64,000 nucleotides of DNA, from the NCBI GenBank assembly GCA_003144015.1, contig QFWS01000004.1, positions 186,001 through 250,000 on the forward strand. The letters are read 5' to 3'. Below the pieces are notes generated by a model, which was not told where the DNA came from, made no database searches, and saw only the letters and a program-made list of their open reading frames with translations. Shown piece by piece: positions 35,320 through 64,000 of the stretch. Numbering within the stretch: position 1 is the first letter of the stretch; the number at the start of each line of letters is the position of its first letter. This DNA comes from Flavobacteriaceae bacterium LYZ1037. GTDB taxonomy: Bacteria > Bacteroidota > Bacteroidia > Flavobacteriales > Flavobacteriaceae. The translations under genes and the position numbers were made by a program.

Positions 35320-36618
35320 TTAAGACTCATTTTGTCTTTTATCAATTACCATCACAGGCTTTCTACTCATAATAGGGAATTGTAATTTTTGGATGACTTT
35401 TTTATCGTGTATTTCAATGCGAGGAGACACACGAAGTTTGGCTCTAAAATGATCTTTAATTCTAGACAATAAATTATCTGTTGGTGCATTGGTTGCTATT
35501 TTAATACAGATTTCGTCTGTTCCAATAGTGTTTCTAGAAATTTCTATAATATAGCTTTCAACCTCGTTAAAATCGTTTAAAATATTATCCATTGCTGGAG
35601 GGTATAAGGTTGTGCCTTTATATTTAATCATCTGCTTTTTTCTGCCTACAACAGGCCCTAAACGCATCGTGTTTCTACCACAACTACAAGCTTCAGTATG
35701 TGCTTGAACCATATCTCCCGTTTTAAAGCGAAGCAAAGGCATGCCTTCAATTCCTAAAGTGGTAATGGTCAATTCGCCAACATCATTTGCTAAAACCGGT
35801 TGATCGTTTTCATCTAAAATTTCAACAATAATTAATTCTGGATGATGGTGTCCACCTTGTTGTTTTTCACATTCATTAAAAGCTGTATTCATTTCGGTTG
35901 AAGCATAGGTAGAATACAATTCAATTTGCCATTGAGAGGTAATTTTATCTGCTAAGGTATTCAACGAAAAATCTTGATTTCGTAAAGGTTCCCCAATACA
36001 AATAGCTCCTTTTACTCCAGAAGATTTTAAATCGATATCATGTTGCTTGGCATACTCAATTAATTTCAATAAAAAAGAAGGAACTGCAATAAGGTAGGTA
36101 GGTTTAAATTTTAAAATAGAATCCCATTGTAATTCTGGAATGCCTGCTCCAACACGAATAATGCCAGCACCAAGTTTTCTAGCTCCAAGAAAATAAGCCA
36201 AACCAGCCATAAAACGTCTGTCTATGGTGGTCATGAGTTGCAAAACATCGTTTTCTGTAACGCCAGAACAAGCAAAAGACAAGGCTTCGTTATATGCTAA
36301 ACGGTTTAAATCGTTGTCTGTTAAAGCAAAAGTTACCGGATCTCCCATAGTACCTGAAGTGGTGACATAATCGATAATTTTGCTTTTAGGCACACATAAA
36401 AAATCGTTATTATATTGTTGTAATTGATCTTTAGTTGTAGTTGGAATCATGGTCAAGTCTTCCAAAGCATGTATAGAACGAATATCTATATTTTGCTCTT
36501 TAAACATCCGATTGTAATAAGGTGAATGAGTGTTTAAATATTGTAATAATTCTTTCAATTTGTCTTCTTGAAAGGTTTTTATGTCTTGGGTTGATGCTTT
36601 TTCTATTTCGGGAATCAT
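35320..36618 (-). CDS. Phenylacetate-CoA ligase-like AMP-forming enzyme
   Basis: A 432-residue member of the ANL (adenylate-forming) superfamily, PaaK-like branch. The P-loop TTSGTMGDPVTF (86-97), the STYASTEMN segment, the acceptor LLRFKTGDMVQ and the Cys-rich CSCGRNTMRLGPVVGR with GRKK are visible. Such enzymes activate aryl or acyl acids with ATP and pass them to CoA or an ACP. In this cluster a likely substrate is an aromatic starter such as 4-coumarate or a finished polyene acid; which one is inference. It is the last gene of the run, overlapping the C45 gene by 4 nt. Confidence 0.85.
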   Translation of the reverse strand: MIPEIEKASTQDIKTFQEDKLKELLQYLNTHSPYYNRMFKEQNIDIRSIHALEDLTMIPTTTKDQLQQYNNDFLCVPKSKIIDYVTTSGTMGDPVTFALTDNDLNRLAYNEALSFACSGVTENDVLQLMTTIDRRFMAGLAYFLGARKLGAGIIRVGAGIPELQWDSILKFKPTYLIAVPSFLLKLIEYAKQHDIDLKSSGVKGAICIGEPLRNQDFSLNTLADKITSQWQIELYSTYASTEMNTAFNECEKQQGGHHHPELIIVEILDENDQPVLANDVGELTITTLGIEGMPLLRFKTGDMVQAHTEACSCGRNTMRLGPVVGRKKQMIKYKGTTLYPPAMDNILNDFNEVESYIIEISRNTIGTDEICIKIATNAPTDNLLSRIKDHFRAKLRVSPRIEIHDKKVIQKLQFPIMSRKPVMVIDKRQNES

Positions 36619-38288
36619 TCTTCGTTTAATTTCCTTTTAATCTTTTTAATATACAAATCTATCTGTTCTTTGTCAGGAACTGTTGTAATTTCTTTAGTTT
36701 TTGCTTCTTCAAAAGCATTTAATGCAGCTCTGTAATGCTTTTTTTCATAATGATATTTTCCTACTAAATAATACCCTTTCCAATAATCTGGATTTGCATC
36801 CTGTAATTCTGTTAGCATGATTGGAACAATATGGTCATCATGACTTATAGATTTTTCAACTTGCCTGCTTAAAACACGATAAGTTTCATAATCTAAATAG
36901 GCTTGTGTGTATTGAAATGGGTCTTCCTCAATTGTCAGCGACTTGCTATTTAATGGTTCTGCTTGATTGTTATTTGGTGCTTCATTAAAAACGGTGTTCA
37001 AGTTATAAGCTACAAATTCCCCTAATTGATACGGATTTGACGATACCCAAACCAAGCGATCTTCGGGTTTAAAAACAATTCCATGATGTGCTAAAAGCTG
37101 ATTCAAGGCTTTTTCGTTTCCATAACCAATGGTTTTATCATGCAAACCTTCTTTGTTTCTTAAAATATCGACAGCTATTTGTGGTGTTAGTTTTGGAGTG
37201 TCATTTAAAAGCTCTTCCATGCGTTCGTAACGATATAGTGAATGACTCTCAAGTTTGTGTTTTGTGTTTTTTTCGTCGTTAGCATAAGCCTCACTTTGAA
37301 AGTGATTGGAGCAAATTAATTGATTGGAATTTTCAACGTCATACACACCAAAATTCTTTGGAGACACTTCAATAGTAATGGCTCGATTGTCTTTAGCACT
37401 TCCAATAAAAATGGATTCGGATACAAAAACTTGACGTTTTTTTGCAATTTCAATAGCTTCATCAATATTAGAAGCATATTGTAAAATCTCTCGAGTTAAA
37501 ATGGAAATAGGTGTTTTTGCTACCCATGGAATATCAGATTTTCCTGCATTTATAGTAACTGTTAACCCTTGATCGTTCATACCAGAAACCACTCCCAACA
37601 TACCTGCCCATGTAACGGACATAAAACTATAACCGTTTGTGGGTTTTATAAAAGCAATTATTTTGTCTTTTGAAAAATCGTCTCCTGCATAAAAATCGAA
37701 ATTTCTTCCAACGATTAAGTCGCCATCTTCAGTTTTATTTCCCCAAGCAGCAAAAGACGAGCAACCTACTAACATGAGGTCTTGTAACGCATGACCAATA
37801 TCGTGAGCACTATGGAAATAAAGAATTCGCAAATAATCGTCTGCAACATAATCGTAAGTGTCTCCTGCATATTTCGAAACACCCAAAATTTCAGATTTAT
37901 ATTCTTCAGGAATATGTAAGTACATTTTACGATTGTACCAAGCCAACATTTTTCTTAACAGATATTGTTTGAATTTTGAAGGTACTAATTCGTCCACTTT
38001 TCCTAAAAAAGCGTGTTCTTGTTTTTCAAATAGCTCCTGAGTTAAACTTCCGGTATTTAAGCCAATTTGATAAGGGTCTCCAGTAACATATAATTCCCAT
38101 TGACCAAATTTATTTTTTGTGAGATACCCATTTTTAGTTGTAAAAGAAGTGTCTGATATGGTTTGACGTTCTGGAATGGTTGGATTGTAACTGCTAACAT
38201 CTGGAATATCATGTAAGGAATTAGAAACACCACAAGAAGCTAAACTTAACAGAATATACAGAGATAATATGTAGGTTTTTAATGTCAT
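36615..38288 (-). CDS. C45-family (acyl-CoA:6-APA acyltransferase-like) lipoprotein with TPR tail
   Basis: A 557-residue exported lipoprotein (SLASC, Cys19). Residues about 60-430 match the N-terminal-nucleophile C45 peptidase/acyltransferase family: the predicted nucleophile is Cys176 in LMLVGCSSFAAWGN, followed by GDLIVGRNFDFYAGDD and MNDQGLTVTINAGK. C45 precursors cut themselves before this Cys. Residues about 495-557 (YWKGYYLVGKYHYEKKHYRAALNAFEEAK) form a TPR-like hairpin. In the flexirubin cluster it may hydrolyse or transfer an acyl or amide group on the pigment at the membrane; that is inference. Overlaps both neighbours by 4 nt. Confidence 0.82.
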   Translation of the reverse strand: MTLKTYILSLYILLSLASCGVSNSLHDIPDVSSYNPTIPERQTISDTSFTTKNGYLTKNKFGQWELYVTGDPYQIGLNTGSLTQELFEKQEHAFLGKVDELVPSKFKQYLLRKMLAWYNRKMYLHIPEEYKSEILGVSKYAGDTYDYVADDYLRILYFHSAHDIGHALQDLMLVGCSSFAAWGNKTEDGDLIVGRNFDFYAGDDFSKDKIIAFIKPTNGYSFMSVTWAGMLGVVSGMNDQGLTVTINAGKSDIPWVAKTPISILTREILQYASNIDEAIEIAKKRQVFVSESIFIGSAKDNRAITIEVSPKNFGVYDVENSNQLICSNHFQSEAYANDEKNTKHKLESHSLYRYERMEELLNDTPKLTPQIAVDILRNKEGLHDKTIGYGNEKALNQLLAHHGIVFKPEDRLVWVSSNPYQLGEFVAYNLNTVFNEAPNNNQAEPLNSKSLTIEEDPFQYTQAYLDYETYRVLSRQVEKSISHDDHIVPIMLTELQDANPDYWKGYYLVGKYHYEKKHYRAALNAFEEAKTKEITTVPDKEQIDLYIKKIKRKLNEE

Positions 38289-39829
38289 GCTTGTTCTGGT
38301 TTTGAAGGCTTATTGGCCTCCACAATTTTATTTAATAAATACTCTTGCCCTAAAATTTCAGAGCAGGTAACAACGCCTCCAATGGTAACACCTAAGATGC
38401 CATGCATGTTTAAACATTGTCCTGTAAATAACAAGTTTTCTATTTTGGTTTTAGGGGAAATAAAAGACTGCATGGATTTATTGACATCTTTTGCATAACC
38501 ATACATAGAACCACGATTGGTAGCAATATAATCTCTGTAAGATAAAGGCGAGGAGGTGTACGTTTCCTGAATACAGTCTCTAATATTTGGAAATTTTTTC
38601 TCAAGTTCTACGATGATTTTTTCTGCTTTTTCACTTTTAAATTCTTCGTAAGTCTGTCCCCTGTCGTTTTTATTTGCTGTTGTATTAAACGTGTTTTCCC
38701 AAGCTTTAACTTCTTCATAACGCATATAAGTCATTATGGTTATGTTGTCTCCATATGCGTCGTTATTCTTCTTAATTCCCATAGATAACATGTAATTTTC
38801 AGGCCAACTTTCTTGGGTGTAATGTTGTGCATTCCAAACAGCATCTACCGATTTGAAATGGTAATAATTCTTATTTAAATATTTAAAACAACCTGGTTTT
38901 AAAACAATATATAAACTAAAAGCAGCGATAGTACTTTCTATTTTTTCGATTCTATTGATGTAGGATTTTCTTAGTTTCCCATCTCCAACAAGTTTAAGTG
39001 TTAGTTTAGGTTCAATGTTCGAAATAAATAGGTCGCCTTGTATTTCATTGCCATTTTCGCAGATTACCGAACTTATTTTGTCGTCTTTAAACTCAAATTT
39101 AACAGCCTCATGATATTTGTAAACTTCGCCACCAGCCTCCATGAGCCTTCGGATTAATAATTTGGTTATCTGACTGCCTCCATTTAAACAACGATACGAA
39201 CTTTGTATGTAGGAGTTTACAGATAAAGAATGCACATAAAAAGGGGTTTTATAACCATCGCCTGCATATAGAAAATTGGTTCCAGCTAAAACAGCCTGAA
39301 GCCTTTTGTTATCGGTAATAGACTCTAAAAACTTTCTTATTTGTAACTTAAAAACACCATCGGCATAAGGTCTTCCAAGTTTTAAACGGTACAGAGGAAA
39401 CTTATCGCAAGTTTCTTTAATTTTGTTGCAATATGCTTGTATGGCTTCAGCTTCATTTGGGAAATCCTTAATTAAACTTTTGGTGAATTTCTCGTAGCCT
39501 TGCGCATAATTATATTCTTTTTTATCGTCGTCAAAAGTAATGGCATCAAAGCCATCTTCATCCATTTTTTTAAGAGCAAGTTCGTCCATAATACCTAAAT
39601 AATTAAAGTATTGATAGAGGTTTTGACCTTGGTCTAAACTTCCGATATAATGAACACCTGTATCGAAAATAGATTTATCTCTTACAAAGGTTTGAAGATT
39701 GCCACCATATTGCTGATTTTTTTCCAAAACGCAAACGCTGTAGCCTTCTTTAGCTAGTATAACTGCCGAAACAAGGCCTCCTAAACCACTACCAACTATA
39801 ACAACATCATATTTAGATTTTGGTTTCAA
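38285..39829 (-). CDS. FAD-dependent oxidoreductase (phytoene-desaturase/CrtI-like)
   Basis: A 514-residue flavoprotein. The Rossmann fingerprint VVIVGSGLGGLVSAVILAKEGYSVCVLEKN has Gly13-x-Gly15 and Glu36; the C-terminal FAD motif is LLFTGQCLNMHGILGVTIGGVVTCSEIL. The family includes carotenoid desaturases and all-trans-retinol saturases, which act on polyenes. In a flexirubin cluster it probably changes the redox state of the polyene or the resorcinol ring. It overlaps the MMPL fusion and the C45 gene by 4 nt each. Confidence 0.87.
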   Translation of the reverse strand: MKPKSKYDVVIVGSGLGGLVSAVILAKEGYSVCVLEKNQQYGGNLQTFVRDKSIFDTGVHYIGSLDQGQNLYQYFNYLGIMDELALKKMDEDGFDAITFDDDKKEYNYAQGYEKFTKSLIKDFPNEAEAIQAYCNKIKETCDKFPLYRLKLGRPYADGVFKLQIRKFLESITDNKRLQAVLAGTNFLYAGDGYKTPFYVHSLSVNSYIQSSYRCLNGGSQITKLLIRRLMEAGGEVYKYHEAVKFEFKDDKISSVICENGNEIQGDLFISNIEPKLTLKLVGDGKLRKSYINRIEKIESTIAAFSLYIVLKPGCFKYLNKNYYHFKSVDAVWNAQHYTQESWPENYMLSMGIKKNNDAYGDNITIMTYMRYEEVKAWENTFNTTANKNDRGQTYEEFKSEKAEKIIVELEKKFPNIRDCIQETYTSSPLSYRDYIATNRGSMYGYAKDVNKSMQSFISPKTKIENLLFTGQCLNMHGILGVTIGGVVTCSEILGQEYLLNKIVEANKPSKPEQA

Positions 39830-42800
39830 AGGATTTCTGTTTTTGTTAATATGGTTATTTTTTCAGCTTGATGGTTCACTTTAAAACTTTGATATTCAAT
39901 TATTTTAGGAGATAGATTTATGCTAGATTGCAGTAAAACAATTTTACAAACGCCATTTTGAATAGCTGTCTCCAACTGATTACTGGTTAATTGAATATCG
40001 TCTATAATAATTACATTCGCTTGATAGTTTAAAACCTCATCACGTGTATTTAAAACCGAAATACGATAGTGATTATTGCTTAAATAACTGTTTCTGATAA
40101 TCTCTCTGATGGTTTGATCTTCAAAATAAGTATTTATTTTTCTATCAGGTCTATCTAATGCTAATAAGAAATCTAATTGCCCACAAGTTTTTGAAAAGTG
40201 AAGAATATTGTCTTTTTCTCCAATGGAATCTATAATGGTTTTGTAAACTATTGCATTGGTCTTTAAATCTAATTTCACTTGTTTGTATAAGGTATCACCT
40301 TTATATCTAAATTCTTCTAAAACCACCTTATGAAAATAGGTTGCATCTTCTTTTATTTTTCTAAATGCATTAAATTCATTTTTAAAATGGCTACTTATTT
40401 TTTTGGTTAGTTCTCTATTTCCCTCAGAAAGGGACCCATCCTTAAAAGGAATTCTATCTAATATTTTTACTGAAATAATCCCTTTCTTAATAACGAAATT
40501 TCCTTTTGGAAGTACTTCAGAATTTCCATGAATTAATACAGGCACAATATCTAATTGAAACTTTTCAGCTAAAAAGAAAGCCCCTTTATGAAAGCGTTTC
40601 ATTTTGTTTGTATAAGAACGCGTACCTTCTGGGAAGGCCATTAAACTATAACCTTGTTTCACTTTTTCCTGAAGATGGTCTACGCCCTTTTCAATGCCAC
40701 TAGATACTGGATAAAAACCGGCAAGTTTCACTGCTTTACCAAAAAAAGGCGAATTGTAAACCCAGTCGTTTACCAAAAAAATCATTTTTGGATGGAGCAT
40801 GCCAATAGCAAGAATATCTAGAAAAGATGTGTGATTGGCTATAACCATGGCTTGTTTTTCAAAGGTTTCTTTAGATTTATTAATCACTCTTGTTTTAAAG
40901 AATGGATATGAATCTAAAACCGATTTCATAAACTTAGACATGACTCTATGGAACCAATTCATTTTAATTTTCATGCTTATAGGTACTACTTTCATAACAG
41001 CAATTCCTATTAAAGACAATAATAAACCACCCAAGCCATAATATGTAAAAGATATGGATGAATGAATAAACATGTGTACTGGTGAAGGTCTACTATGTTT
41101 GCTTCCAATAAAAAACATAAACAAAAGTGGCTGAATAGCAAACGAAATTAACATGGCAGAAAGAATACCAATTAAAGACACCAAAGAAATGCTATGTAAA
41201 GCTGGGTGCTTCGCGAAAATTAAAACTCCTACTCCTAAAATTGTGGTAATTACAGAAAGTAAAATAGAGGTTTTATGAGTAGGTAAAGAGCTTTCGCCTG
41301 TTCTTAATTCATGGAGTAAACCATTTGTTATAAAAATGCTATAATCGATGCCTAAACCAAAAATAAATGTCGTAATAATAATATTGAAAATATTAAATTG
41401 AATATCCAACAAGCCCATAATTCCAAGGGTTAAAAACCAGGTTAAAGCTATTGGAAGAAGTGTAACAAGTGTTAATGAAAAGCTTCTGTAAAAGAGTAGT
41501 AATAGTAATAAAACGACAACAAATGAATAGCCTACTAAACTATTAAAATCGGTTTTAAGGCTTCCCAAAAAGGTTTCATTCATTTGTTTTCTGTCAATAA
41601 CCATGGTTTGTGAGCTGTTTTCAAATTTATTAAATAAGTTTTCGGCTTGCTCATCCTTTAGTTTAACTAAAGTCGTTATGGTTGTAAAATCATCTTTGGT
41701 AGCTATATAATCGTCAACCGAAATGGTTTCTAAGTCGTTAAAAGCTTCAGGGTTTAGGGGTTTGAAATCCTTATTTAATTGTGTGTAAAACTCCTGAAAA
41801 CTAGTTGGCTTAAACCCTAATTTCGAGCCACTTTCGATGAGGTTTTTTTGGATGTTTTGTTTAGTGTCTTCTGTCCAGAAATTATTCCAAAATGCAAGTT
41901 GCTTTTCTTGGATTTTATCTGATTTTATTAAGGCACTAATGGAACTAAAACCAATAAGACTATCTTTTTTTCTAAGGGTTTTTAAGGCTGAAAAAACGCT
42001 GTCGTTTGTAGATAAAACGCTTTGTTCATTTGTTCCGTAAGCAGCTATATAAACAGATTTTGAATTGATATTGGTTAATGCATCTAATCTGTTTTGGGCT
42101 TCACGAAGTTCGGTTGGTTCAAAATTTAAATTGGCTAAATCGTTGTTGAAAGTTACTTTGTTATAGGTAAAGTAGCTCATGATAAACAACATGACTAAAC
42201 CAATTAAAATCCATTTGTTTTTATGTAATGGATAACTTGCAATCTTGTCTAAAATTGTTGTTTTTTTGGCTGTTTCACTTTTGTTTTTATAAACTAAAGG
42301 AATAAAAATCAAGGCAAAAAATGATGATCCAAGCACACTAATAGAAGCGAAAAGTCCTAAATCTTGAAGGGCTTGAGAATCTAAAAACAACAAACATAAA
42401 AATGCTAAAGCTGTTGTTAAACTGCTCATTAAAATAGGTTTGGTAATTTCTTGATATAAAGCTTTAACGTTGTTATTACTTCGAATATGCGTTAATATAT
42501 GCAAGGCATAATCTAAGGTAATCCCTAGTAAAACGGAACCAATTCCTAAAGAAATTGCAGAAATTTTAGTGCGTATTAAAAAGAGTAACGCTACAGCCAG
42601 CAAGGCGCCAAAAGCTGTTGGTGTAAATAGAATTAGAGGAACGCTTAGCTTTCTATAAAAAAGAATTAAGATTAAAAGTAAAACCGAAATAGCAATACCA
42701 ACCGTTAATTGAATGTCTTTTTTTATTTGTTTGGCATTAGCTACAGCAACTAAAGCGCCTCCAAAATATTCGCTACTTACCTTGCCTTTAAAGACATGAT

Positions 42801-43518
42801 TTAAATTTGTATTTAATTGATAAAGTTGCTCAGCAAAAAGGGTGTTTTTTGATGTTTCACTAGATGCATGCGTTGGAGAAATAAAGAGCAGCACGTGTTT
42901 TTTGTCTTTGCTTAATAAAAAGCCATTTTGCATGGTAAACTCATTACCAAAACTTAAGAGTTGTAATTTTTTTAAAGCTAAAAAAGATAAACCCAAAGGG
43001 TCTCTCAAAATGGTTTCTTTAGCAACCATTCCAGAGGGCGAAATCAAAGTTTTATAATTGGCTTTGGTAATAGCTTCTATACTATCTTTTTGTAGTTTAT
43101 TTTGGATGGTTTTATAGTCAGATTCTTCAAGAAAATGTGGTAAGTTGTTATAAACAAAATCTAAAGTATTGAGAATATCTTCATCTTCAACTTTTCCTTG
43201 AATTTTTGTGAAATATTCACTAGAACTATTGTTAATACTATCAATAAACTGCGAAGCGTATTGTGTTAAGTCGTTGATAGAACCGGCAGATTCTCTCTTA
43301 ATATTTACAATAATCTTATCGGCAAAATTGACTGATTTTAAAACTTTTTGAGCATCAGAGTTTTCTTCGTTTATTGGAATAAGCTTTGTAATATCTTCTT
43401 CAAATTCAATTTTAGATGCTAGAAACCCTAAGCTTAAAACCAGTAGGACTAAAGCAAAAAAGCCTACAATTTTTCTTGAGGCTAAATACGTATGTATGTT
43501 GTAAAAAAAGTTAGTCAT
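39826..43518 (-). CDS. MMPL/RND transporter fused to PlsC acyltransferase and methyltransferase-like domain
   Basis: A 1230-residue fusion. Residues 1-820 are an MMPL/RND exporter with two sets of TM helices (for example SVLLLILILFYRKLSVPLILF; VVLLLLLLFYRSFSL) and two periplasmic domains. After another membrane segment, residues about 870-1060 are a PlsC-type acyltransferase with NHTSFLD (about 895) and FPEGTRS (about 958). The last 155 residues resemble a class I SAM methyltransferase fold, but the nucleotide motif (ILHFSKTCGQLDF) lacks the glycine pattern. This triple plan is known from flexirubin clusters of Bacteroidota. It could acylate the pigment at the membrane and move it outward. 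Confidence 0.87.
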   Translation of the reverse strand: MTNFFYNIHTYLASRKIVGFFALVLLVLSLGFLASKIEFEEDITKLIPINEENSDAQKVLKSVNFADKIIVNIKRESAGSINDLTQYASQFIDSINNSSSEYFTKIQGKVEDEDILNTLDFVYNNLPHFLEESDYKTIQNKLQKDSIEAITKANYKTLISPSGMVAKETILRDPLGLSFLALKKLQLLSFGNEFTMQNGFLLSKDKKHVLLFISPTHASSETSKNTLFAEQLYQLNTNLNHVFKGKVSSEYFGGALVAVANAKQIKKDIQLTVGIAISVLLLILILFYRKLSVPLILFTPTAFGALLAVALLFLIRTKISAISLGIGSVLLGITLDYALHILTHIRSNNNVKALYQEITKPILMSSLTTALAFLCLLFLDSQALQDLGLFASISVLGSSFFALIFIPLVYKNKSETAKKTTILDKIASYPLHKNKWILIGLVMLFIMSYFTYNKVTFNNDLANLNFEPTELREAQNRLDALTNINSKSVYIAAYGTNEQSVLSTNDSVFSALKTLRKKDSLIGFSSISALIKSDKIQEKQLAFWNNFWTEDTKQNIQKNLIESGSKLGFKPTSFQEFYTQLNKDFKPLNPEAFNDLETISVDDYIATKDDFTTITTLVKLKDEQAENLFNKFENSSQTMVIDRKQMNETFLGSLKTDFNSLVGYSFVVVLLLLLLFYRSFSLTLVTLLPIALTWFLTLGIMGLLDIQFNIFNIIITTFIFGLGIDYSIFITNGLLHELRTGESSLPTHKTSILLSVITTILGVGVLIFAKHPALHSISLVSLIGILSAMLISFAIQPLLFMFFIGSKHSRPSPVHMFIHSSISFTYYGLGGLLLSLIGIAVMKVVPISMKIKMNWFHRVMSKFMKSVLDSYPFFKTRVINKSKETFEKQAMVIANHTSFLDILAIGMLHPKMIFLVNDWVYNSPFFGKAVKLAGFYPVSSGIEKGVDHLQEKVKQGYSLMAFPEGTRSYTNKMKRFHKGAFFLAEKFQLDIVPVLIHGNSEVLPKGNFVIKKGIISVKILDRIPFKDGSLSEGNRELTKKISSHFKNEFNAFRKIKEDATYFHKVVLEEFRYKGDTLYKQVKLDLKTNAIVYKTIIDSIGEKDNILHFSKTCGQLDFLLALDRPDRKINTYFEDQTIREIIRNSYLSNNHYRISVLNTRDEVLNYQANVIIIDDIQLTSNQLETAIQNGVCKIVLLQSSINLSPKIIEYQSFKVNHQAEKITILTKTEIL

Positions 43519-44707: not shown

Positions 44708-44786
44708 TTCAAGGAAGCTTTTTTGTTACTGTTCCCAAATTACTGATTTTTACTCTTAATTTAAGCGATAGTTTAAATAATTAGGA

Positions 44787-45449
44787 CTAAAATTTCTGAT
44801 CCGGTTTTTTGCTTTTATTTTTAAGTAGGTAATTGTAATGTTTCAAAGCGTTTACAATAGATTGGGCAGTATCATGACCTTCAACACTCATTACTAATTT
44901 GCGTTTATCCCACTTGTCTTTCTTTTCGTTAAATAAGAATGGCACATGAAAATTGATATAAGCTAGCTCGTTAGCTCTTCTATCAGGCCTTCTAAAAGAA
45001 TACACGTTTTTAAAATTGTATAAATAGTTGCTTAATTCCTTGGTTTGATTTTTATTCATGACAATTAATCTTAAATAATCACCTTCAAAGATTGCTTTAT
45101 ATCTATTTTTTAAATAGCCATTATCATCATAGCAATAGGTTTCAATATATTCTTTTAAAAATGCTTCTGTTTCTTCTAATGTGGCACTTTTTTCTTCAGA
45201 TGTTGTATTATTTGAATCAGATTCAAAGGTATCAACATCTCCATTTTCAAAAATAATTTTTGTTACATCTGTTTTTTCTATATGATAGGTAGGTCCAGAT
45301 AAGTTATTAAATTTTTTATAAGAAATTGTTTCAATATGAATCTCTTCAACTTTAGCAGAGATTTCTTCATTGGTTGATGTTATAATAAGATCTTGTGCTG
45401 AGATAGAAAGTGAAAAAACAAAAAAGACTAATAGGGTAATTTTCTTCAT
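44787..45449 (-). CDS. Hypothetical secreted protein in pigment cluster
   Basis: A 220-residue protein with a signal peptide (ITLLVFFVFSLSISAQ). The mature start DLIITSTNEEISAKVEEIHIETISYKKFNN ... TDVTKIIFENGDV is a repeated strand-turn pattern found in many Bacteroidota exported proteins. The rest has no recognised motif. The ends carry basic residues (KKPDQKF). It lies between DUF2062 and another secreted gene; the spacing of 79 nt to the glycosyltransferase start is among the larger gaps of the run. Function unknown. Confidence 0.75.
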   Translation of the reverse strand: MKKITLLVFFVFSLSISAQDLIITSTNEEISAKVEEIHIETISYKKFNNLSGPTYHIEKTDVTKIIFENGDVDTFESDSNNTTSEEKSATLEETEAFLKEYIETYCYDDNGYLKNRYKAIFEGDYLRLIVMNKNQTKELSNYLYNFKNVYSFRRPDRRANELAYINFHVPFLFNEKKDKWDKRKLVMSVEGHDTAQSIVNALKHYNYLLKNKSKKPDQKF

Positions 45450-45478
45450 AATAAATTTAGGGATAAAAATAATGATGC

Positions 45479-55612: not shown

Positions 55613-56057
55613 CCAGTAAGCCTACGTTTTGTTTCCAATCTTTAAAAAATGATGGAATGGTTAGCCACAAATCTCCTTCTCCAATTTTGTCTACAAATAC
55701 TTGTATGGTTTCACCTGTACAAACCAGCTGATCGTTTTGGTTGTAAATTTCGTAACGAAACACCATTTTTGCAGCCTGACTATCTACATAAATGGTTTTA
55801 ATAGTCGCGATATCTCCATATCGCAAAGGTAATTTATGATCTGTGCTGGATTTTACAATTGGTGTAGCAAAACCGTATTTTTTCTGGTCTAAATAAGAAA
55901 TACCATGATGTCTTCCAAAAGCTTCACGACCATCCTCAAAATATTGAATGTAATTGCCATGCCAAACAATTCCTAGCGGATCTGTTTCAACAAAGCGTAC
56001 ACGCACTTGACTTTTGTGAACGATTTCTTTTGGTTTAAACGGTGTTTTTCTTTTCAT
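55605..56057 (-). CDS. Acyl-CoA/ACP thioesterase (4HBT hot-dog family)
   Basis: About 150 residues with the 4-hydroxybenzoyl-CoA thioesterase signature VRFVETDPLGIVWHGNYIQYFEDGREAFG, including the catalytic Asp (TDPLG). It probably releases an acyl or aryl group from CoA or ACP in the pigment pathway. Start taken at MKRKTPFK; an earlier ATG (56072) adds five residues. Both starts lie inside the end of the ABC permease gene. Confidence 0.9.
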   Translation of the reverse strand: MKRKTPFKPKEIVHKSQVRVRFVETDPLGIVWHGNYIQYFEDGREAFGRHHGISYLDQKKYGFATPIVKSSTDHKLPLRYGDIATIKTIYVDSQAAKMVFRYEIYNQNDQLVCTGETIQVFVDKIGEGDLWLTIPSFFKDWKQNVGLLDE

Positions 56058-57303
56058 TATAAACAATGGCAATTAATGTGGTTGCTATAAAAAACAGGAA
56101 TAGCAAGCTAATTTCTGGTAAAATATCTAACAAGGAACCATGACGCAAAAATACATCGTAAAATGCATTTAACCCCCAATTCATCGGCGAAATATTAGAG
56201 AGTGTTTGCATGAATTTTGGCATGATAAAGACAGGAACCCAAACACCTCCTAAAGCAGCTAGAATAACAACAAACGTTGCTCCAAAAGGAGCTGATTGCT
56301 CTTGAGTTTTAGCAATGGTACCTAACAATAAGCCTAAGCCAATAGCGGCCAGACCAGCAAAAATAGCTACCACAAAAAGCAATGGTAATCTACCAGAAAT
56401 ATCTAAGGTTGGTAAACCTATGGCTGGAAATAAATAAACTCCTACTAAGAGCATTAATACAAATTGAATAAGGCAGACCACTAAATAAACAAGTGTTTTA
56501 CCTCCTAAAACGGTTGCGTAGGAAACCGGATTTGTACGTAACCTAACAAAAGTCCCTTGACTTTTTTCTTTTACGATATTGATTGAAAGAGGTACAATTA
56601 TAAAAAAGATAGCGAACAAGGTCCAAGCTGGAACGTTGTGTTGTACCGAATTTGGAATAAGTTCTTCATTATCTTTTTTAGGAAGTATTTCTTTAAAAGT
56701 GATGAAGTTTTCAGTTTCAAAAATAGTTTCTGTTGGGTCGTCTGTTATTTGTTCTTGAAATGCTTTATAAATGGATTCTGTTTCAATTTTAGCAACCATT
56801 TTATCAATCCCGTTTTTTACAGAGCTTTTAAAAGTCATTTGTGTTGCAGGATCGAAATAAAGTTTTACCACTTTACTTTCTATGATTTGATTTGGAGGAC
56901 CTTCAGTTTCATCTTCTAAACCAAATTTTTCAATAATACCTTCCACATTCTGAGCTACTTTTTGCTCTAATCCAGAACTTAAGCCTTCAGGAATAATAAT
57001 AGCTAATTGAAAAGTCCCTTTAAAGACCAAATCTTTTGCAATGTCTTCGGTGTCTTTTATGTTTACTTCAAAAGCATTAGATTCTTCTAATCCTTTTAAA
57101 ATAGTTTCAGAAACTTTACCCTGATCGTTATTTACTACCAGAATAGGAATTTTGGCATCAGAAACTGTTTTAAATGTACTATCTTGAATGAGTGTAATAG
57201 TTACAATTAATACCAATGGCATGATGAAAAGTATGGCAATACCACCAATATCGCGTATAAGCAATAAAAACTCTTTGTGTGCTGAAGCCTTTAATTTATG
57301 CAT
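56035..57303 (-). CDS. ABC-2 type transporter permease
   Basis: A 422-residue membrane protein with one N-terminal helix, a long extracytoplasmic domain (about 45-225), and five C-terminal helices (VPAWTLFAIFFIIVPLSINIV; GKTLVYLVVCLIQFVLMLLV). This is the YhgE/DrrB/NatB-like ABC-2 export plan. It overlaps the ATPase gene by 8 nt. In this cluster it probably moves the pigment or its lipid precursor across the inner membrane. Confidence 0.92.
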   Translation of the reverse strand: MHKLKASAHKEFLLLIRDIGGIAILFIMPLVLIVTITLIQDSTFKTVSDAKIPILVVNNDQGKVSETILKGLEESNAFEVNIKDTEDIAKDLVFKGTFQLAIIIPEGLSSGLEQKVAQNVEGIIEKFGLEDETEGPPNQIIESKVVKLYFDPATQMTFKSSVKNGIDKMVAKIETESIYKAFQEQITDDPTETIFETENFITFKEILPKKDNEELIPNSVQHNVPAWTLFAIFFIIVPLSINIVKEKSQGTFVRLRTNPVSYATVLGGKTLVYLVVCLIQFVLMLLVGVYLFPAIGLPTLDISGRLPLLFVVAIFAGLAAIGLGLLLGTIAKTQEQSAPFGATFVVILAALGGVWVPVFIMPKFMQTLSNISPMNWGLNAFYDVFLRHGSLLDILPEISLLFLFFIATTLIAIVYNEKKNTV

Positions 57304-58039
57304 GATCTCTTAAGGCTTTTCCAGTGATACTTATAAAAACATCTTCTAAATTGTGTGAGCCTTCACTATTCTCAATCAATTCTTTTGGTTTCCCTTTAAT
57401 AACTAATTTTCCATGATCTATAATAGCAACTCTAGTACAGAAGGTCTCAGCTTCGTTTAAGTGATGTGAGGTGTAAATAATGGTGGCTCCATTTTTATTT
57501 AATTCTTGAAGGAATTCGATAATAACGTTTTTAGATTGCACATCCACACCAACTGTTGGCTCATCTAGAAACAAGACTTTAGGGTTGTGAAGAATGCTTG
57601 CAATTAAATTGATGCGACGTTTCATGCCACCAGAAAACGTATCAATTTTTTTATGAGCAAAAGCTGCAAGTCCTAAATGTTCTAAAGAGTTATTTATCTT
57701 ATTGTCTAAAACAGTTCCTTTTAAACCATACATGCTTCCGAAGTATTTTAAATTCTCAAAAGCTGTTAACGAAGGATATAAAGCATACTCTTGTGGCACA
57801 ATACCAATAAGCTGCTTAAGTTCATTTTTGTTCTTCTGGTAGGTTAATCCATCAATAGAGAAGGAGCCAGAAGTAGGTTTAATAAGCGAGCATAAAATGG
57901 AAATTAATGTAGTTTTGCCAGCACCATTGGGGCCTAATAAACCAAAGATTTCTTTTTCAGTAATGAGCAGATTTAAGTCAGATAAAGAATAATTATCTGC
58001 ATGTTTATATTTTTTAGATATGTGCTCAATGTTGATCAT
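57296..58039 (-). CDS. ABC transporter ATP-binding protein
   Basis: A 247-residue ATPase with Walker A GPNGAGKTT, signature FSGGMKRRI, Walker B VLFLDEPTVGVD and switch His in YTSHHLNEAE. The DrrA/CcmA-like type pairs with ABC-2 permeases, here the next gene. It lies 2 nt after the BtrH-like gene, giving an ordered export pair within the pigment operon. Confidence 0.95.
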   Translation of the reverse strand: MINIEHISKKYKHADNYSLSDLNLLITEKEIFGLLGPNGAGKTTLISILCSLIKPTSGSFSIDGLTYQKNKNELKQLIGIVPQEYALYPSLTAFENLKYFGSMYGLKGTVLDNKINNSLEHLGLAAFAHKKIDTFSGGMKRRINLIASILHNPKVLFLDEPTVGVDVQSKNVIIEFLQELNKNGATIIYTSHHLNEAETFCTRVAIIDHGKLVIKGKPKELIENSEGSHNLEDVFISITGKALRDHA

Positions 58040-58041
58040 TT

Positions 58042-59040
58042 TTATTTAATAGCGTTCTTTAACTTTTTAAAGAAGACCTCTTCTTTATCTGCAATAACTT
58101 CTAGTTGTGTCGCCACGTTGTTATAAGCATCTTCTTTAGCGCTTCGGTTTTTATAAATTCTTGAAGCATCTACTGCAAAATCCCGCCATGAATCGCCAAT
58201 TAACGTCATTTCTTTAGACAGATTAGAAAGTTCTGGTTTATTTAATATGTTACTAGATTCTTGTAAAAAAGCTGCAAAAATATACCTAAAACCTCCACCT
58301 CCAGTTCCAATTTCCTCTTGCATTCTAACTATTTGACCTAAGTAATGATTGGCTTTTTTAACACCTTTTTTCTTTGGCCATTTTCTAATAAGTTTGGCAG
58401 TATGTCGAATACCATTAACCCCTAAAACAGGAATAGGAGCCAACATGTCTTTACAAGTATGTTTGATGCCTTTTACAATGGCTTTCTCTAAGTCTAATTC
58501 TTTTGGGAAATCTACAGGGTAATAGATGTGTCCTTTTGGAGCGAAGGCTCCTTTAGCAAAACGGACTTTTTCCAATTGTTTGTCTGTTAAGGTAGTTACC
58601 GTTTCCATAACAGGATCGCTAATTAAATAGGTGTCGTTTTGCTTACCGTAAACTACTAAATTATGTGCGTTAAAATGAAAACGATATTCATCTGGAAAAT
58701 ACACCAAATTATATACACCAACTTGAAGTCCAACAGGGTTGTTATTTTTTAAATTCTCGTCTAATCGAGCTTTAGCTTGTTGCGGGTTTTTAAATTTTTC
58801 TCGTTTTATTTTTATTCCAACACGTTTAGCAAAACGTTTAAAAATAATCCCTGGTAAAGCTCTATATGTAAAAGCTGGTGCATGGTTTACCATTAAGAAA
58901 GGAATGTAACAAAACAACAAGCCAGAACCAATACCAAAAGCCAAAGGTTCACTAACTTGAAAACCATGATGTTTCATTAAATTAGAAATCACACCGTTTT
59001 CGCAATGTGCCGATTGATGATGTGTGAAATTAATTTCCAT
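58042..59040 (-). CDS. BtrH N-terminal domain protein (cysteine-transferase-like)
   Basis: A 332-residue protein. The N-terminus FTHHQSAHCENGVISNLMKHHG matches the BtrH_N domain, a papain-like fold; in BtrH it transfers an acyl group from an ACP to an aminoglycoside. Cys13 would be the nucleophile and HFNAHNLVVYG the His region. The C-terminal part (about 190-330) is helical. A role in moving the acyl polyene from ACP onto the resorcinol to form the ester is an attractive inference, as this cluster must join the two halves. Overlaps the 136-residue gene by 11 nt. Confidence 0.83.
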   Translation of the reverse strand: MEINFTHHQSAHCENGVISNLMKHHGFQVSEPLAFGIGSGLLFCYIPFLMVNHAPAFTYRALPGIIFKRFAKRVGIKIKREKFKNPQQAKARLDENLKNNNPVGLQVGVYNLVYFPDEYRFHFNAHNLVVYGKQNDTYLISDPVMETVTTLTDKQLEKVRFAKGAFAPKGHIYYPVDFPKELDLEKAIVKGIKHTCKDMLAPIPVLGVNGIRHTAKLIRKWPKKKGVKKANHYLGQIVRMQEEIGTGGGGFRYIFAAFLQESSNILNKPELSNLSKEMTLIGDSWRDFAVDASRIYKNRSAKEDAYNNVATQLEVIADKEEVFFKKLKNAIK

Positions 59041-59440
59041 GAAGGGTTATGTTATTTAGTTGTTCCATACTCACGTCGAAAACATCAGCATATTTTTGTA
59101 GTATTTTTTTAGGTAATTTATTGAATACTTTGGGTTTGAAATGTCTTTTTACACGCCATTTCCACATACCAACGTAACTAGCTAAAATAGGAAGGTCCAT
59201 TTTATGAAATTCCATGTAATATTCAATAGGGCTGCTTTGGTTATTTAAAACACGTTGTTTGGCATCTTCAACACGTTCTTTAATATCTTCAATAGCTTTG
59301 TTTAATGCAATGGTTTTTGGGTCCCAACCGGAACTATTAACGGTTGTATATTCTCCATTCTCATCGACAGCATAACACAATTCTTTAAAATTTGCCGATT
59401 CTAGATTACTCTTATCCTGTGGGACTTCATCTTTTTTCAT
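59030..59440 (-). CDS. Conserved hypothetical protein of flexirubin clusters
   Basis: A 136-residue cytoplasmic protein without signal or TM helix. It is rich in charged residues. A central region IEYYMEFHKMDLPILASYVGMWKWRVKRHFKPKVF is followed by KLPKKILQKYADVFDVSMEQLNNI, which looks like a short helix-turn-helix of the XRE kind. It overlaps the BtrH-like gene start by 11 nt, suggesting the two products work together. It could be a regulator or a partner protein. I cannot assign a family with confidence. Confidence 0.7.
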   Translation of the reverse strand: MKKDEVPQDKSNLESANFKELCYAVDENGEYTTVNSSGWDPKTIALNKAIEDIKERVEDAKQRVLNNQSSPIEYYMEFHKMDLPILASYVGMWKWRVKRHFKPKVFNKLPKKILQKYADVFDVSMEQLNNITLHGN

Positions 59441-59447
59441 ACTGAAT

Positions 59448-60331: not shown

Positions 60332-60332
60332 T

Positions 60333-61466
60333 TTAACAAACTGTTAAAAGGGCATAAGCATAAGCAAAACGTGCGCTTTCTGGAACAGATAGCAAAATGT
60401 TATCTCCTTTTTTTAATTTTCCTGAAGAGGATAACTCTTCTAACATAATATAAATGGATGCGGCTCCAACATTCCCTACTTTGCTTAAATTCATAAACCA
60501 GTTTTCCCAAGGGATTTCAACGCCTTGTTTTACCATTTCTTCGTATAGTTTTTCTTTAAAATAATATGAAGAAATATGTGGTAAATAATAATCAACATCT
60601 TCTGGTTTTAAACCATGTTTCTCGATAGCCATTTTTAAGCTGTCAACACCTTTTACAAGAATGTTTTCGCCTAAAAGTTTGACATCTTGTTTCATGGCAA
60701 ATAATGATTTTTTACTCCATTGATCCGAGGGGTACTCGCTCCATGGTTTTAAAAAGCCATTTTCAAGCTTATCGGCTCCAGCATACATACATGCTTCTAA
60801 TTCGTGAGCGTAAGAATACCCTTCCATCCATTCAATTTTCAGAGGAAGTTCTCCATTTGGTTCGTTTTCTAATAAAAAAGCTCCTGCGCCATCCGAAAGC
60901 ATCCAACGTAAAAAATCTTTATTAAAAGCTAGAATAGGGTTTTCTTCAAGGGTATTTAAATGTTTTAATTCGTCTTCAAAGGTATCCGATTTCATCCAAG
61001 AAGATGTGCGTTCTGAACCTGTACAAACAGCATTTTCTGTTTGTCCAGATTTTACTGCTAGAAAACCGTATTTTAACGCATTCATTCCAGAGCAACATGC
61101 TCCTGAAGGTGAATTTATTTCTGTATTCCCGTTTTTTAAGAATCCATGAACCATGGCTGCATGGGAAGGTAATATTTGATCTGGACTCGATGTGCCACAA
61201 GATAATAATTCAATGTCGCTTGGGTTTAAGTTATCATCATATAGTTTTTCAATTGCTTCCTTTGTAAGTTGCGCATTGTTATGGGTTATCTTTCCATAAT
61301 CATCGATTGCATAATATCTAGTTTTTATTTGGTTGTTTCGTAAAACAATACGTCTTCCTTTAGAAGATTTTCCATCAATTATTCCTAATTTATCTTCCAT
61401 CTCATCATTACTAATGGGACGATTGGGTAAAAATTTTGATATTTTTGTAATGTAAACTTCCTTCAT
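60333..61466 (-). CDS. darB: DarB-type beta-ketoacyl synthase III
   Basis: A 377-residue FabH-like ketosynthase. The Cys-His-Asn set is visible: Cys125 (SGACCSGMNALKYG), His (DYYLPHISSYYF) and Asn (SKVGNVGAASIY). DarB joins two 3-oxoacyl units to make the precursor that DarA turns into a dialkylresorcinol (DarA and DarB are described for flexirubin and other dialkylresorcinol pathways). The next gene is darA, 14 nt upstream, which settles the assignment. Confidence 0.92.
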   Translation of the reverse strand: MKEVYITKISKFLPNRPISNDEMEDKLGIIDGKSSKGRRIVLRNNQIKTRYYAIDDYGKITHNNAQLTKEAIEKLYDDNLNPSDIELLSCGTSSPDQILPSHAAMVHGFLKNGNTEINSPSGACCSGMNALKYGFLAVKSGQTENAVCTGSERTSSWMKSDTFEDELKHLNTLEENPILAFNKDFLRWMLSDGAGAFLLENEPNGELPLKIEWMEGYSYAHELEACMYAGADKLENGFLKPWSEYPSDQWSKKSLFAMKQDVKLLGENILVKGVDSLKMAIEKHGLKPEDVDYYLPHISSYYFKEKLYEEMVKQGVEIPWENWFMNLSKVGNVGAASIYIMLEELSSSGKLKKGDNILLSVPESARFAYAYALLTVC

Positions 61467-61480
61467 TTTTTTAGTACCTT

Positions 61481-62401
61481 CTATTTTAATACAACAGATG
61501 AGTAATAGATCTTATCTTTTTTTATTTTACCATATAAAGGTAAATAAGTGAGCAAAAATAAGATAAATACGATAGGTGCAATAATCCATATAGCAAATAA
61601 AAGATAATAATTAAACATTTTAACGAATAATTGCCTTTTTGAGACGTTTTTTCTTCCTTTCGATTGAATTAAATGTGCCCATTTTGAAAATAAAATGTTT
61701 GCTCTTTTGTCAACAGTTATTAAAAATGGTTTAATTTTTACAGCATCTTGGCTTAAAAGTTCGGGTTGTAAGGTACTATAATTATTAGTTAATAAGTGAT
61801 TTTTTATTACTAGTCCAAATTTAACAGATTCATCGATATCTTTTTGAGACACTCCTGGTTTTGGAAAGATTCCTAAAAAACGTTCTTTTTTTCCAGAGAA
61901 CATCCATTGTGCAATAGTTATCACACTAATATGATTAATATGTCTATCAGCAAGAACAATATTTCCTACCAAAGTTGCTTGAAGATCTTTTAGCTTTCTC
62001 TTCATTTTTTCTTGTGCCATTATCCACATATTTCTACAACCTATAACTGTTATTACTGGTGTGTTTGCAAATAATTTTTTAGCATCTGGAGAATTTAAAA
62101 AGGAAGTTGTAGGCAAAGATGGAGTTAAATACCAAATGGCATAGCCAAAAACTATTAAATCGTACTTTTTATTAAGAATGGATTCTGGAACTATTTTTGT
62201 TTTTTGTGGAATTTGAAGAAAAGTTTCTGGAAAAACACCATAAAACTCTTTCTTGTTCCAAGGGAACGGAAATGGGTTTTCCATTTCAATATTTAGAAAA
62301 GTTAGATTTGTTTCTTCAGTTTTTAAAGGTGAAACAATATTATTTACAATCTCTGTTAATTGGCCAGATTGCGAATAATGTATGACTAAAATTTCTTTCA
62401 T
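61481..62401 (-). CDS. darA: Dialkylresorcinol condensing enzyme DarA
   Basis: A 306-residue protein with the DarA signature start MKEILVIHYSQSGQLTEIVNNI, a flavodoxin-like segment, then PFPFPWNKKEFYGVFPETFLQIP and the VFGYAIWYLTPSLPTTSFL region. The C-terminus has hydrophobic helices (YYLLFAIWIIAPIVFILFLLTYL) that anchor it in the membrane. DarA closes and aromatises the product formed with DarB to give the dialkylresorcinol part of flexirubin. Order acyltransferase-darA-darB is compact. Confidence 0.93.
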   Translation of the reverse strand: MKEILVIHYSQSGQLTEIVNNIVSPLKTEETNLTFLNIEMENPFPFPWNKKEFYGVFPETFLQIPQKTKIVPESILNKKYDLIVFGYAIWYLTPSLPTTSFLNSPDAKKLFANTPVITVIGCRNMWIMAQEKMKRKLKDLQATLVGNIVLADRHINHISVITIAQWMFSGKKERFLGIFPKPGVSQKDIDESVKFGLVIKNHLLTNNYSTLQPELLSQDAVKIKPFLITVDKRANILFSKWAHLIQSKGRKNVSKRQLFVKMFNYYLLFAIWIIAPIVFILFLLTYLPLYGKIKKDKIYYSSVVLK

Positions 62402-62411
62402 AAATCTTTAA

Positions 62412-63296
62412 TTATTTTTTGAACGAACTCCAAAAATCAAAATAGTTAAACCATTGTAAAGGATATTTTTTTAACATCCAGCTAACACTTTCGGTATATT
62501 CTTTTAATAAAGCTTGCGCATCTCTATGCTTAGCAGTTGCTCTTCTAGCATATAAATGATAATGTTTCTTAGGTTCTTTCATAACATATACAAACAACAC
62601 TGGAACATGCAGTCTGGAAGCCAACATAAAAGGGCCAGCCGGGAACTTGGCTTCTTCTCCTAAAAGTTTTTCTGTTAGAAATTTAGAGCCTTTAATGTAT
62701 CGATCTCCAGTAATACAAACAATTTCATTTCTTGCTAAAGCTGCATTGACTTCAAAGATATGAGATAAATCGTCTTTTATGATTATTAGATTGATGTTCG
62801 ATTTTTTTCTAACACTATCTAAATAGTCTTTAATAGCTGTGTGTTCAATGTCTGTAGTAAGTAAACTTATGGACGCATTTTCTTCAAGTTCTCCAAAAAA
62901 ATACTCAGAAATTTCAAAATTTCCAACATGAGCACTAATCAAAATACCTCCTTTTTTTTCTTTAAGGGTTTCGTTTATAAGATGAACACCATCTGACTCG
63001 TAAGTAAATTTATGACTTAAATTTGAAGAGATAGCAATTTTATCCAGAATGGTTTGACCAAAAACATAATAGCTTTTATAAACATTTATAAAACTTTTAG
63101 CTTTAGAATAATTTAACCGATGTTTTAGATAATAATAGATGGATTTTGTGCTGTCTTTTGAAAAAAGACAAAAATAAGCAGCTACAAAAAATAAGATAAA
63201 GTAGGCTGCACCAATTCCAACTTTCTTCATGAAAAACACGAAGATTTTGTACCCAAGAACGGTTCCTCTGGATTTACCTTGCCATTCTGCAGCCAT
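62412..63296 (-). CDS. LpxL/HtrB-type lysophospholipid acyltransferase
   Basis: A 294-residue inner-membrane acyltransferase of the lipid A late-acyltransferase family. It has one N-terminal TM helix (AAYFILFFVAAYFCLFS) and the active-site H-x4-E motif HVGNFE (LISAHVGNFEISEYF). Aryl polyene clusters contain such enzymes, which are thought to fix the pigment to a lipid. Here it follows the ACP gene by 20 nt and precedes darA by 10 nt, so it likely acylates the resorcinol or polyene product. Confidence 0.9.
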   Translation of the reverse strand: MAAEWQGKSRGTVLGYKIFVFFMKKVGIGAAYFILFFVAAYFCLFSKDSTKSIYYYLKHRLNYSKAKSFINVYKSYYVFGQTILDKIAISSNLSHKFTYESDGVHLINETLKEKKGGILISAHVGNFEISEYFFGELEENASISLLTTDIEHTAIKDYLDSVRKKSNINLIIIKDDLSHIFEVNAALARNEIVCITGDRYIKGSKFLTEKLLGEEAKFPAGPFMLASRLHVPVLFVYVMKEPKKHYHLYARRATAKHRDAQALLKEYTESVSWMLKKYPLQWFNYFDFWSSFKK

Positions 63297-63316
63297 ATAT
63301 TATAAAGTCTAGTTTT

Positions 63317-63559
63317 TTAGGCTAGTTTATTTTCAATAAGTGTATAGAAATCGCTTAAAGATTTAACATTGATAAAATCTTCTCCAACCAATTTAACACC
63401 AAAATTAGATTCTACAGCAACCACAAGATCTACAAAATCTAAACTGTCTAATTCTAGAGTTTCTTTTAAGTTAGCATTTGGTGAAATGTCTTCACTCTCA
63501 ACTTCAAATTCATCGATAAGAAAGTCGTTTATCTTTTCAATAATAACCTCTTTATTCAT
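63317..63559 (-). CDS. Acyl carrier protein (second in cluster)
   Basis: An 80-residue ACP with the phosphopantetheine site LELDSLDFVDLV. It is the DarC-like ACP by position, upstream of darA and darB, and presumably carries the acyl substrates of DarB. Starts 7 nt after the ketosynthase gene stop. Confidence 0.95.
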   Translation of the reverse strand: MNKEVIIEKINDFLIDEFEVESEDISPNANLKETLELDSLDFVDLVVAVESNFGVKLVGEDFINVKSLSDFYTLIENKLA

Positions 63560-63566
63560 TACTACA

Positions 63567-64000
63567 CTATATTTTTTTAATTATTAATGCTGAATTTGTT
63601 CCTCCAAATCCAAAAGAATTGGACAAAAGTACATCAATTTTTTTATCTAGCGTTTTGTTAACTAAATTTAATTTTATAGCATCATCGTCTGGTTCCTCTA
63701 AATTAATGTTTGGCGCAATAAAATCATTCTGCATCATTAGGACTGAATATAACACTTCGCTCGCTCCAGCCATCCAACATTCGTGTCCAGTCATAGATTT
63801 TGTTGAGCTTACATAAGGGCCATTTTCACCAAATACTTCAAAGATAGCCTTTGCCTCATTAGCATCGCCAACAGGAGTTGAGGTAGCATGGGCATTTACA
63901 TATTGTATATCTGTTGGATGAATACCTGCTTGTTTGATTGCCATTTTCATAGCTCTTGCTGGTCCATCGACATTTGGAGTTGAAATATGGTCTCCATTTG
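63567..64000 (-). CDS. Beta-ketoacyl-ACP synthase, C-terminal part (cut by window edge)
   Basis: The frame is open to the right edge; only the C-terminal 140 or so residues are seen. The visible His motifs are VNAHATSTPVGD (HATST in place of HGTAT) and MTGHECWMAGASEV (GHE.. in place of GHT), with the ending SNSFGFGGTNSAL. Before the first Met lies DHISTPNVDGPARA, as in FabF-type enzymes. The nucleophile Cys is outside the window. It probably serves the dialkylresorcinol or polyene branch. Confidence 0.92.
   Translation of the reverse strand, partial: NGDHISTPNVDGPARAMKMAIKQAGIHPTDIQYVNAHATSTPVGDANEAKAIFEVFGENGPYVSSTKSMTGHECWMAGASEVLYSVLMMQNDFIAPNINLEEPDDDAIKLNLVNKTLDKKIDVLLSNSFGFGGTNSALIIKKI

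Follow-up and report, generated by a model that had tools for sequence, protein, structure and literature searches.

Does the long run of minus-strand genes in a contig of Flavobacteriaceae bacterium LYZ1037 encode a complete pathway to flexirubin, a yellow-orange pigment that many Bacteroidota carry in their outer membrane, and if so, is anything about it new? The stretch analysed (hereafter the window) comprises 64,000 nucleotides of contig QFWS01000004.1 (positions 186,001 to 250,000), and the run occupies it from 35,320 to the right edge. The original prediction had read the run as a flexirubin-type aryl polyene–dialkylresorcinol (DAR) cluster whose set of genes was known from no other Bacteroidota locus, and had expected the genes not seen to lie further right or elsewhere. 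Judged from sequence, the locus is almost certainly a complete flexirubin cluster of the Flavobacteriaceae type (a probability of roughly 96%). The cluster itself is of an already known, ordinary kind; its halogenase-like neighbour, a flavoprotein gene divergent from flxA, is less described.

A complete cluster across the window edge

Eight flexirubin- or DAR-specific NCBIfam models scored above their curated cut-offs (FlxY, LolB2, LolA2, DarH, DarG, DarB, FlxB and FlxA; Table 1), bearing out the predicted class of product, and the named parts are all present: darB, two acyl carrier proteins, ketosynthases, hot-dog dehydratases, the ABC-2 exporter, the MMPL fusion and LolA-like carriers, with darA recognised by position. 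Calling of open reading frames (ORFs) gave 31 complete minus-strand ORFs between 35,320 and 63,559 and a 32nd truncated by the window edge, so that the predicted count of about 30 tightly packed genes held (32 in the window), while a 79-nt gap between 44,707 and 44,787 had gone unmentioned.

The right end of the cluster had been placed outside the window, and the ketoreductase and tyrosine ammonia-lyase (TAL) with it. In the next 18 kb of the contig (whose first 1000 bases are identical to the last 1000 of the window) the run extends 4.2 kb further, ending at window-equivalent 68,236, and carries FlxB and FlxA, both above cut-off. The notion that the absence of TAL and ketoreductase from the window indicates a different pathway was rejected, both genes lying 0.8–4.2 kb past the edge. 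The phosphopantetheinyl transferase, also expected beyond the window or elsewhere, has a candidate encoded on contig C23, the one protein found in the genome to match Pfam ACPS (42 bits, cut-off 25). A second ammonia-lyase in the genome, on contig C34, reached 347 bits against the FlxA model, for which the cut-off is 700.

The whole run (35,320–68,236) comprises 35 minus-strand genes, all of them open reading frames; it is 99% coding, 14 of its 34 junctions overlap, and intergenic gaps range from −38 to +30 nt with the 79-nt gap as sole exception. At its right end, a plus-strand gene (68,345–69,595) faces away from flxA across 108 bases. Motif searches found Cys/His/His catalytic residues in three FabF-type ketosynthases (starting at 51,284, 54,455 and 63,567), the Cys in DarB, and a DSL or DSI serine motif in both acyl carrier proteins. 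Two ketosynthase-like ORFs without the motifs (at 50,207 and 52,776; 354 and 205 amino acids) resemble what we take to be a chain-length-factor-like partner, the role that the first of them (50,207–51,271) would probably play.

Conservation of gene content and order

FlxY scored above cut-off in 26 of 99 genomes, the window's own among them, and 40 stretches from 21 of the 25 others were searched with 38 proteins. In 12 of the 21 relatives' loci (G035, G007, G046, G001, G034, G003, G004, G002, G048, G008, G019 and G025), 30–32 of 32 cluster genes (a count that leaves out the three beta-barrel genes) were present with none out of order, and the arrangement is therefore not a matter of chance. 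In these 12 loci flxY, darA/darB and flxA share one stretch; the genes missing among them are that of the 220-aa (amino acid) protein (7/12) and the FlxJ-like gene (4/12). Identity to congeners with the same gene order reaches 98% for single cluster proteins. The claim that no other Bacteroidota locus has this set was thus mistaken: curated NCBIfam families exist, the 12 relatives share the flx and dar order, and clusters have been published for Chitinophaga pinensis and Flavobacterium johnsoniae (PMC3992019) and surveyed in hundreds (268 from 252 strains, with a Flavobacteriia-specific family that includes BGC0000838; PMC9248904).

A scan with an FlxA alignment, considered for the best 80 of 573 loci and so leaning to near relatives, returned Bizionia, Aequorivita, Winogradskyella, Maribacter, Flavobacterium, Chryseobacterium and other genera; the closest were two species of Bizionia (88%) and a metagenome-assembled genome labelled Bacteroidia bacterium (89%). 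FlxB accompanied flxA within 10 kb in 79 of these 80 loci and DarB did so in 51, some contigs ending sooner. One of 14 control genomes (Bacteroides ihuae) passed the strict FlxA search. The accompanying alignment (A2) holds 13 of 18 FlxA-like ORFs and omits the window's own gene twice, the close congeners L013 and L025, and the genome's other ammonia-lyase, L001. A homologue of the WG-repeat protein lies near flxA in 53 of the best 80 loci.

Several observations weigh against a complete flexirubin cluster. The FlxJ-like methyltransferase reached 438 bits against a curated cut-off of 560, and DarA, named by its place beside darB, matched no NCBIfam or Pfam family; among solved structures it had a single match at E 0.063, which we do not count as a relationship. 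The full set was not seen in nine of the 21 loci from relatives. Two of these (G020 and G045) have flx genes but no dar genes in the stretch; the other seven were uninformative, since in five (G087, G063, G076, G095 and G030) most of the stretch fell on the wrong side of flxY and in two (G084 and G010) it was too short.

A homologue of the FlxJ-like gene was found in 10 of the 21 relatives' stretches, and not in four near-full clusters (G048, G008, G019 and G025). Clusters of the latter kind may, by their gene content, be predicted to yield unmethylated flexirubins.

Proposed route, known systems and alternatives

By the route we propose, FlxA would deaminate tyrosine to 4-coumarate, which FlxY would convert to its CoA thioester, the 4-coumaroyl-CoA primer; ketosynthases acting on the two acyl carrier proteins, with the ketoreductase FlxB and the hot-dog dehydratases, would then lengthen it into an aryl polyene carboxylate, with C-methylation of the ring presumably the work of the FlxJ-like enzyme. 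DarB and DarA would join two fatty-acid-derived chains into a dialkylresorcinol, and DarH (which we favour) or another of the acyltransferases may form the ester between polyene and resorcinol. The ABC-2 pair, the MMPL fusion and LolA2/LolB2 would serve transport of the pigment to the outer membrane. For LYZ1037 the whole route is inferred, as are the roles assigned in ester formation, methylation and export.

The published clusters offer close parallels. In C. pinensis, the flxA–flxY cluster (Cpin_1853–Cpin_1877), published in 2014 in the same paper that describes the F. johnsoniae cluster, is likewise bounded by the FlxA TAL and the FlxY CoA ligase, and between them holds ketosynthases, reductases, dehydratases, thioesterases, a polysaccharide deacetylase, an acyltransferase, LolA, a glycosyltransferase and an exporter; genes for LolA, exporter, deacetylase and glycosyltransferase are proposed to serve export, FlxA and FlxY were active in vitro, and expressed darA/darB formed a dialkylresorcinol (PMC3992019). 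The 37-kb cluster of F. johnsoniae UW101 (MIBiG BGC0000838) contains darA/darB, and is likened here by its published description rather than gene by gene. The aryl polyene cluster of F. johnsoniae has also been mapped, with an ultraviolet 'parasol' role proposed (PMC5932025); with that idea in mind, a search of the LYZ1037 genome for rhodopsin gave no match, and was uninformative since the controls were equally blank. Aequorivita capsosiphonis, with aryl polyene and dar genes, is stated to be flexirubin-positive (data not shown there; PMC5932025), and other Aequorivita are among the best 80 of the 573 FlxA loci. In Galbibacter, where the flexirubin cluster is complete, the KOH test was positive (PMC11237725), and a sponge isolate carries a flexirubin-like cluster (PMC7440613). 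The arcuflavin/xanthomonadin-type cluster of Azoarcus sp. BH72 shares type II polyene assembly, LolA, exporter, glycosyltransferase and polysaccharide deacetylase, as well as genes annotated as an outer-membrane protein and a halogenase (PMC3949708). In contrast, its starter comes from a chorismate-utilising enzyme (XanB2 type), where LYZ1037 would use TAL and FlxY.

Neighbouring genes might instead make two products released separately: an aryl polyene that serves as membrane pigment and a free dialkylresorcinol that acts as a signal or antibiotic. The two gene sets do stand apart in some relatives: 17 Chryseobacterium loci (L113–L129) have flxA, flxB (17/17) and the halogenase-like gene (17/17) without dar genes within 10 kb, the dar genes of C. 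pinensis form a separate cluster (PMC3992019), and dialkylresorcinols are described as signalling molecules in Zobellia galactanivorans, also of the Flavobacteriaceae (PMC7440613). In LYZ1037, however, the dar genes lie within one tight same-strand run with the flx genes and adjoin DarH, of an acyltransferase family named for DAR clusters, and a darB mutant of F. johnsoniae is flexirubin-negative (PMC3992019), which makes separate release very improbable. That the genes are decaying, or silent, and yield no product is more improbable still: no observation in favour of it was found, and against it stand 35 open reading frames out of 35, catalytic residues kept in the three ketosynthases and DarB, and single proteins nearly identical to those of congeners with the same order.

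A halogenase-like flavoprotein divergent from flxA

The plus-strand gene facing away from flxA accompanies FlxA closely in three samples that have some genomes in common. Among the 99 relatives, FlxA was above cut-off in 27 genomes (own included), and the flavoprotein was present in every one of these and in none of the 72 others (E ≤ 1e-100). Across the phylum, FlxA was found in 25 of 296 genomes and the flavoprotein in 23 of these and 0 of 271 others (E ≤ 1e-100); in one further family the figures were 18 of 121, 13 of 18 and 0 of 103 (E ≤ 1e-60). At most the best 6 (phylum) or 14 (further family) candidates per genome were scored, making a miss possible, if unlikely for a match of this strength. 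First-look candidates occurred also in genomes lacking FlxA, none of them past the thresholds. Among the best 80 of 573 loci, 79 carry the gene on the strand opposite to flxA and upstream of it, 76 of them within 400 bases and three at ~1.3–1.4 kb; the stretch of the other, L109, has no flavoprotein gene. This linkage is not universal, the two genes being >500 kb apart in G030 (where the flavoprotein gene is near flxY instead), G114 and G361, and ~32 kb apart in G319.

Among solved structures, 16 distinct sequences matched the protein at E ≤ 1e-10, the best of them 3NIX ('Flavoprotein/dehydrogenase'; 576 bits). Nine halogenases including PltA, CmlS and ChlB4 follow (106–176 bits), then four more (74 bits), and below these the non-halogenases, a reductase (3oz2, 54 bits) and a FixC-type protein (7koe, 45 bits). 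The protein matches Pfam Trp_halogenase at 96 bits (cut-off 21), and reaches none of the NCBIfam halogenase cut-offs (CmlS model, 164 of 900 bits). The motifs WxWxIP and FxxPxxSxG occur in 16 of 17 translated ORFs (two of the 16 being the window's own gene twice); the ORF without them is L031, a 24%-identity fragment. Lys73 is invariant in 14 of 14 aligned sequences and faces a Lys in PltA and CmlS; together with the two motifs, this active-site Lys is what we take to be the mark of flavin-dependent halogenases. That alignment (A1) holds 14 of the 17 ORFs, omitting L002 (own gene again), L031 (unrelated) and L013 (translated beyond its stop at codon 415); alignment A3 holds 12 of 14 rows.

These features suggest that the flavoprotein is, on balance, probably a flexirubin ring halogenase of PltA/CmlS type, which would add chlorine to the ring while the coumaroyl or aryl-polyene intermediate is bound to its carrier. 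A core, non-halogenating role fits the 27 of 27 in close relatives, but two of 25 and five of 18 FlxA genomes in the wider samples lack the flavoprotein at the thresholds used, so a tailoring step fits better than an obligate one. Ring chlorination varies among known flexirubins (PMC3992019). The pigment of C. pinensis, C43H54O4, contains no chlorine (PMC3992019), and this species is predicted either to lack the flavoprotein gene or to leave it unexpressed. We found no literature that assigns a flexirubin halogenase, which is weak evidence of absence as most subscription journals lay outside the search, and no biochemistry for the flxA-divergent flavoprotein in the literature searched.

Accessory proteins and surroundings of the cluster

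Of the three tandem beta-barrel proteins, those at 46,970 and 47,618 are ~65% identical to each other and that at 46,355 ~35% identical to both. Among 16 relatives covering the site, tblastn (which a diverged copy could escape) detected a pair of copies in each of G003 and G004 and a single copy in seven others; in the remaining seven it detected none. The view of the tandem barrels as a unique insertion is weakened, nine of the 16 relatives having one or two copies; only the third copy is particular to LYZ1037 in this comparison, and the three barrels are a local expansion. The barrels adjoin LolA2/LolB2, and possibly have a part in pigment placement.

The 165-aa protein was modelled by AlphaFold2 as a helical fold (mean predicted local distance difference test score, 90); it had no structural match in the PDB at E ≤ 0.001, and its top sub-threshold matches allow a guess that it is tetratricopeptide-repeat-like. 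The C45-type protein (Table 1) is a candidate for a role in acyl transfer or processing.

To the left of the cluster lie large proteins with type IX secretion sorting tails and HYR/FG-GAP and fn3 domains (24,550–29,442, minus strand; 32,674–35,226, plus strand), and further left metal ABC transporter genes (two permeases and a substrate-binding protein, under curated cut-offs) and FeoB (11,276–15,204 and 17,380–19,479, both minus strand).

Table 1. Genes of the flexirubin cluster and its divergent neighbour (positions in the window; we, window-equivalent positions beyond its right edge)
Feature	Position	Strand	Evidence
flxY, 4-coumarate-CoA ligase (acyl-CoA ligase)	35320..36618	-	NCBIfam FlxY_rubin 750 bits, cut-off 520
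C45-type autoproteolytic acyltransferase/hydrolase, lipoprotein-like N-terminus	36615..38288	-	NCBIfam C45_proenzyme 250 bits, cut-off 85; Pfam AAT
CrtI/CrtD-like FAD oxidoreductase	38285..39829	-	Weak phytoene desaturase family matches, under cut-offs
MMPL-family exporter fused to 1-acylglycerol-3-phosphate-type acyltransferase	39826..43518	-	Pfam MMPL and Pfam Acyltransferase within a single ORF
Family-2 glycosyltransferase fused to DUF2062	43511..44707	-	Pfam
220-aa protein, variable accessory	44787..45449	-	No NCBIfam/Pfam family; in 5/21 relatives' stretches
165-aa all-helical protein, conserved in flavobacterial clusters	45479..45976	-	No NCBIfam/Pfam family; in 13/21 relatives' stretches
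Hot-dog dehydratase (FabZ-like)	45987..46352	-	FabZ 35 bits, under cut-off
Three tandem small outer-membrane beta-barrel proteins	46355-46960, 46970-47599, 47618-48238	-	Pfam OMP_b-brl/OMP_b-brl_2
LolB2, flexirubin lipoprotein-acceptor-like protein	48235..48852	-	NCBIfam LolB2_flexi 270 bits, cut-off 60
LolA2, flexirubin periplasmic carrier	48827..49444	-	NCBIfam LolA2_flexi 238 bits, cut-off 125
Polysaccharide deacetylase-like protein	49437..50213	-	NCBIfam deacetylase families, under cut-offs
Ketosynthase-like, 354 aa, without Cys/His motifs	50207..51271	-	Weak FabF similarity
Ketosynthase with Cys/His/His	51284..52486	-	FabF-type matches under cut-offs; motifs
Acyl carrier protein	52517..52774	-	NF006617 85.7 bits, cut-off 70; DSI motif
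Short ketosynthase-like, 205 aa	52776..53393	-	Weak FabF match, E 1e-4; no Pfam match; motifs absent
FlxJ-like methyltransferase	53401..54462	-	FlxJ_fam 438 bits, under cut-off 560
Ketosynthase with Cys/His/His	54455..55612	-	FabF-type matches under cut-offs; motifs
YbgC/FadM-type thioesterase	55605..56072	-	TIGR00051 81 bits, cut-off 68.7
ABC-2 exporter permease	56035..57303	-	RbbA/SagH/DrrB-type matches under cut-offs
ABC exporter ATPase	57296..58039	-	DrrA-type matches under cut-offs
DarH, BtrH-related acyltransferase	58042..59040	-	DarH_acyl 516 bits, cut-off 300; Pfam BtrH_N and DUF4872
DarG	59030..59440	-	flexirubin_DarG 214 bits, cut-off 170
Two hot-dog dehydratases	59448-59900, 59900-60331	-	Weak FabZ matches under cut-offs
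DarB, ketosynthase for dialkylresorcinol ring precursor	60333..61466	-	resorcinol_DarB 672 bits, cut-off 550
DarA	61481..62401	-	Position beside darB; darB-adjacent homologue in the 12 full relatives' loci
Lipid A-type acyltransferase	62412..63296	-	Pfam Lip_A_acyltrans
Acyl carrier protein	63317..63559	-	NF003757 66.1 bits, cut-off 65; DSL motif
Ketosynthase with Cys/His/His	63567..64000 in window (3' part); gene extends to we 64784	-	
FlxB, short-chain dehydrogenase/reductase-type ketoreductase	we 64797-65528	-	NCBIfam 417 bits, cut-off 340
WG-repeat protein	we 65576-66703	-	Between flxB and flxA
FlxA, tyrosine ammonia-lyase	we 66716-68236	-	FlxA_rubin_TAL 895 bits, cut-off 700
Flavin halogenase-like gene	we 68345-69595	+	Divergent from flxA

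Conclusions

The cluster predicts flexirubin production and a positive KOH test in LYZ1037. Its divergent neighbour provides a testable candidate halogenase gene, found only with FlxA in the samples searched and having a solved relative without a specific function name. If the assignment is true, the known chlorinated flexirubins would gain a gene, 3NIX would belong to the flxA-linked flavoprotein family, and chemotaxonomy, which makes use of chlorinated and unchlorinated flexirubins, could gain a link from these pigments to genotype.

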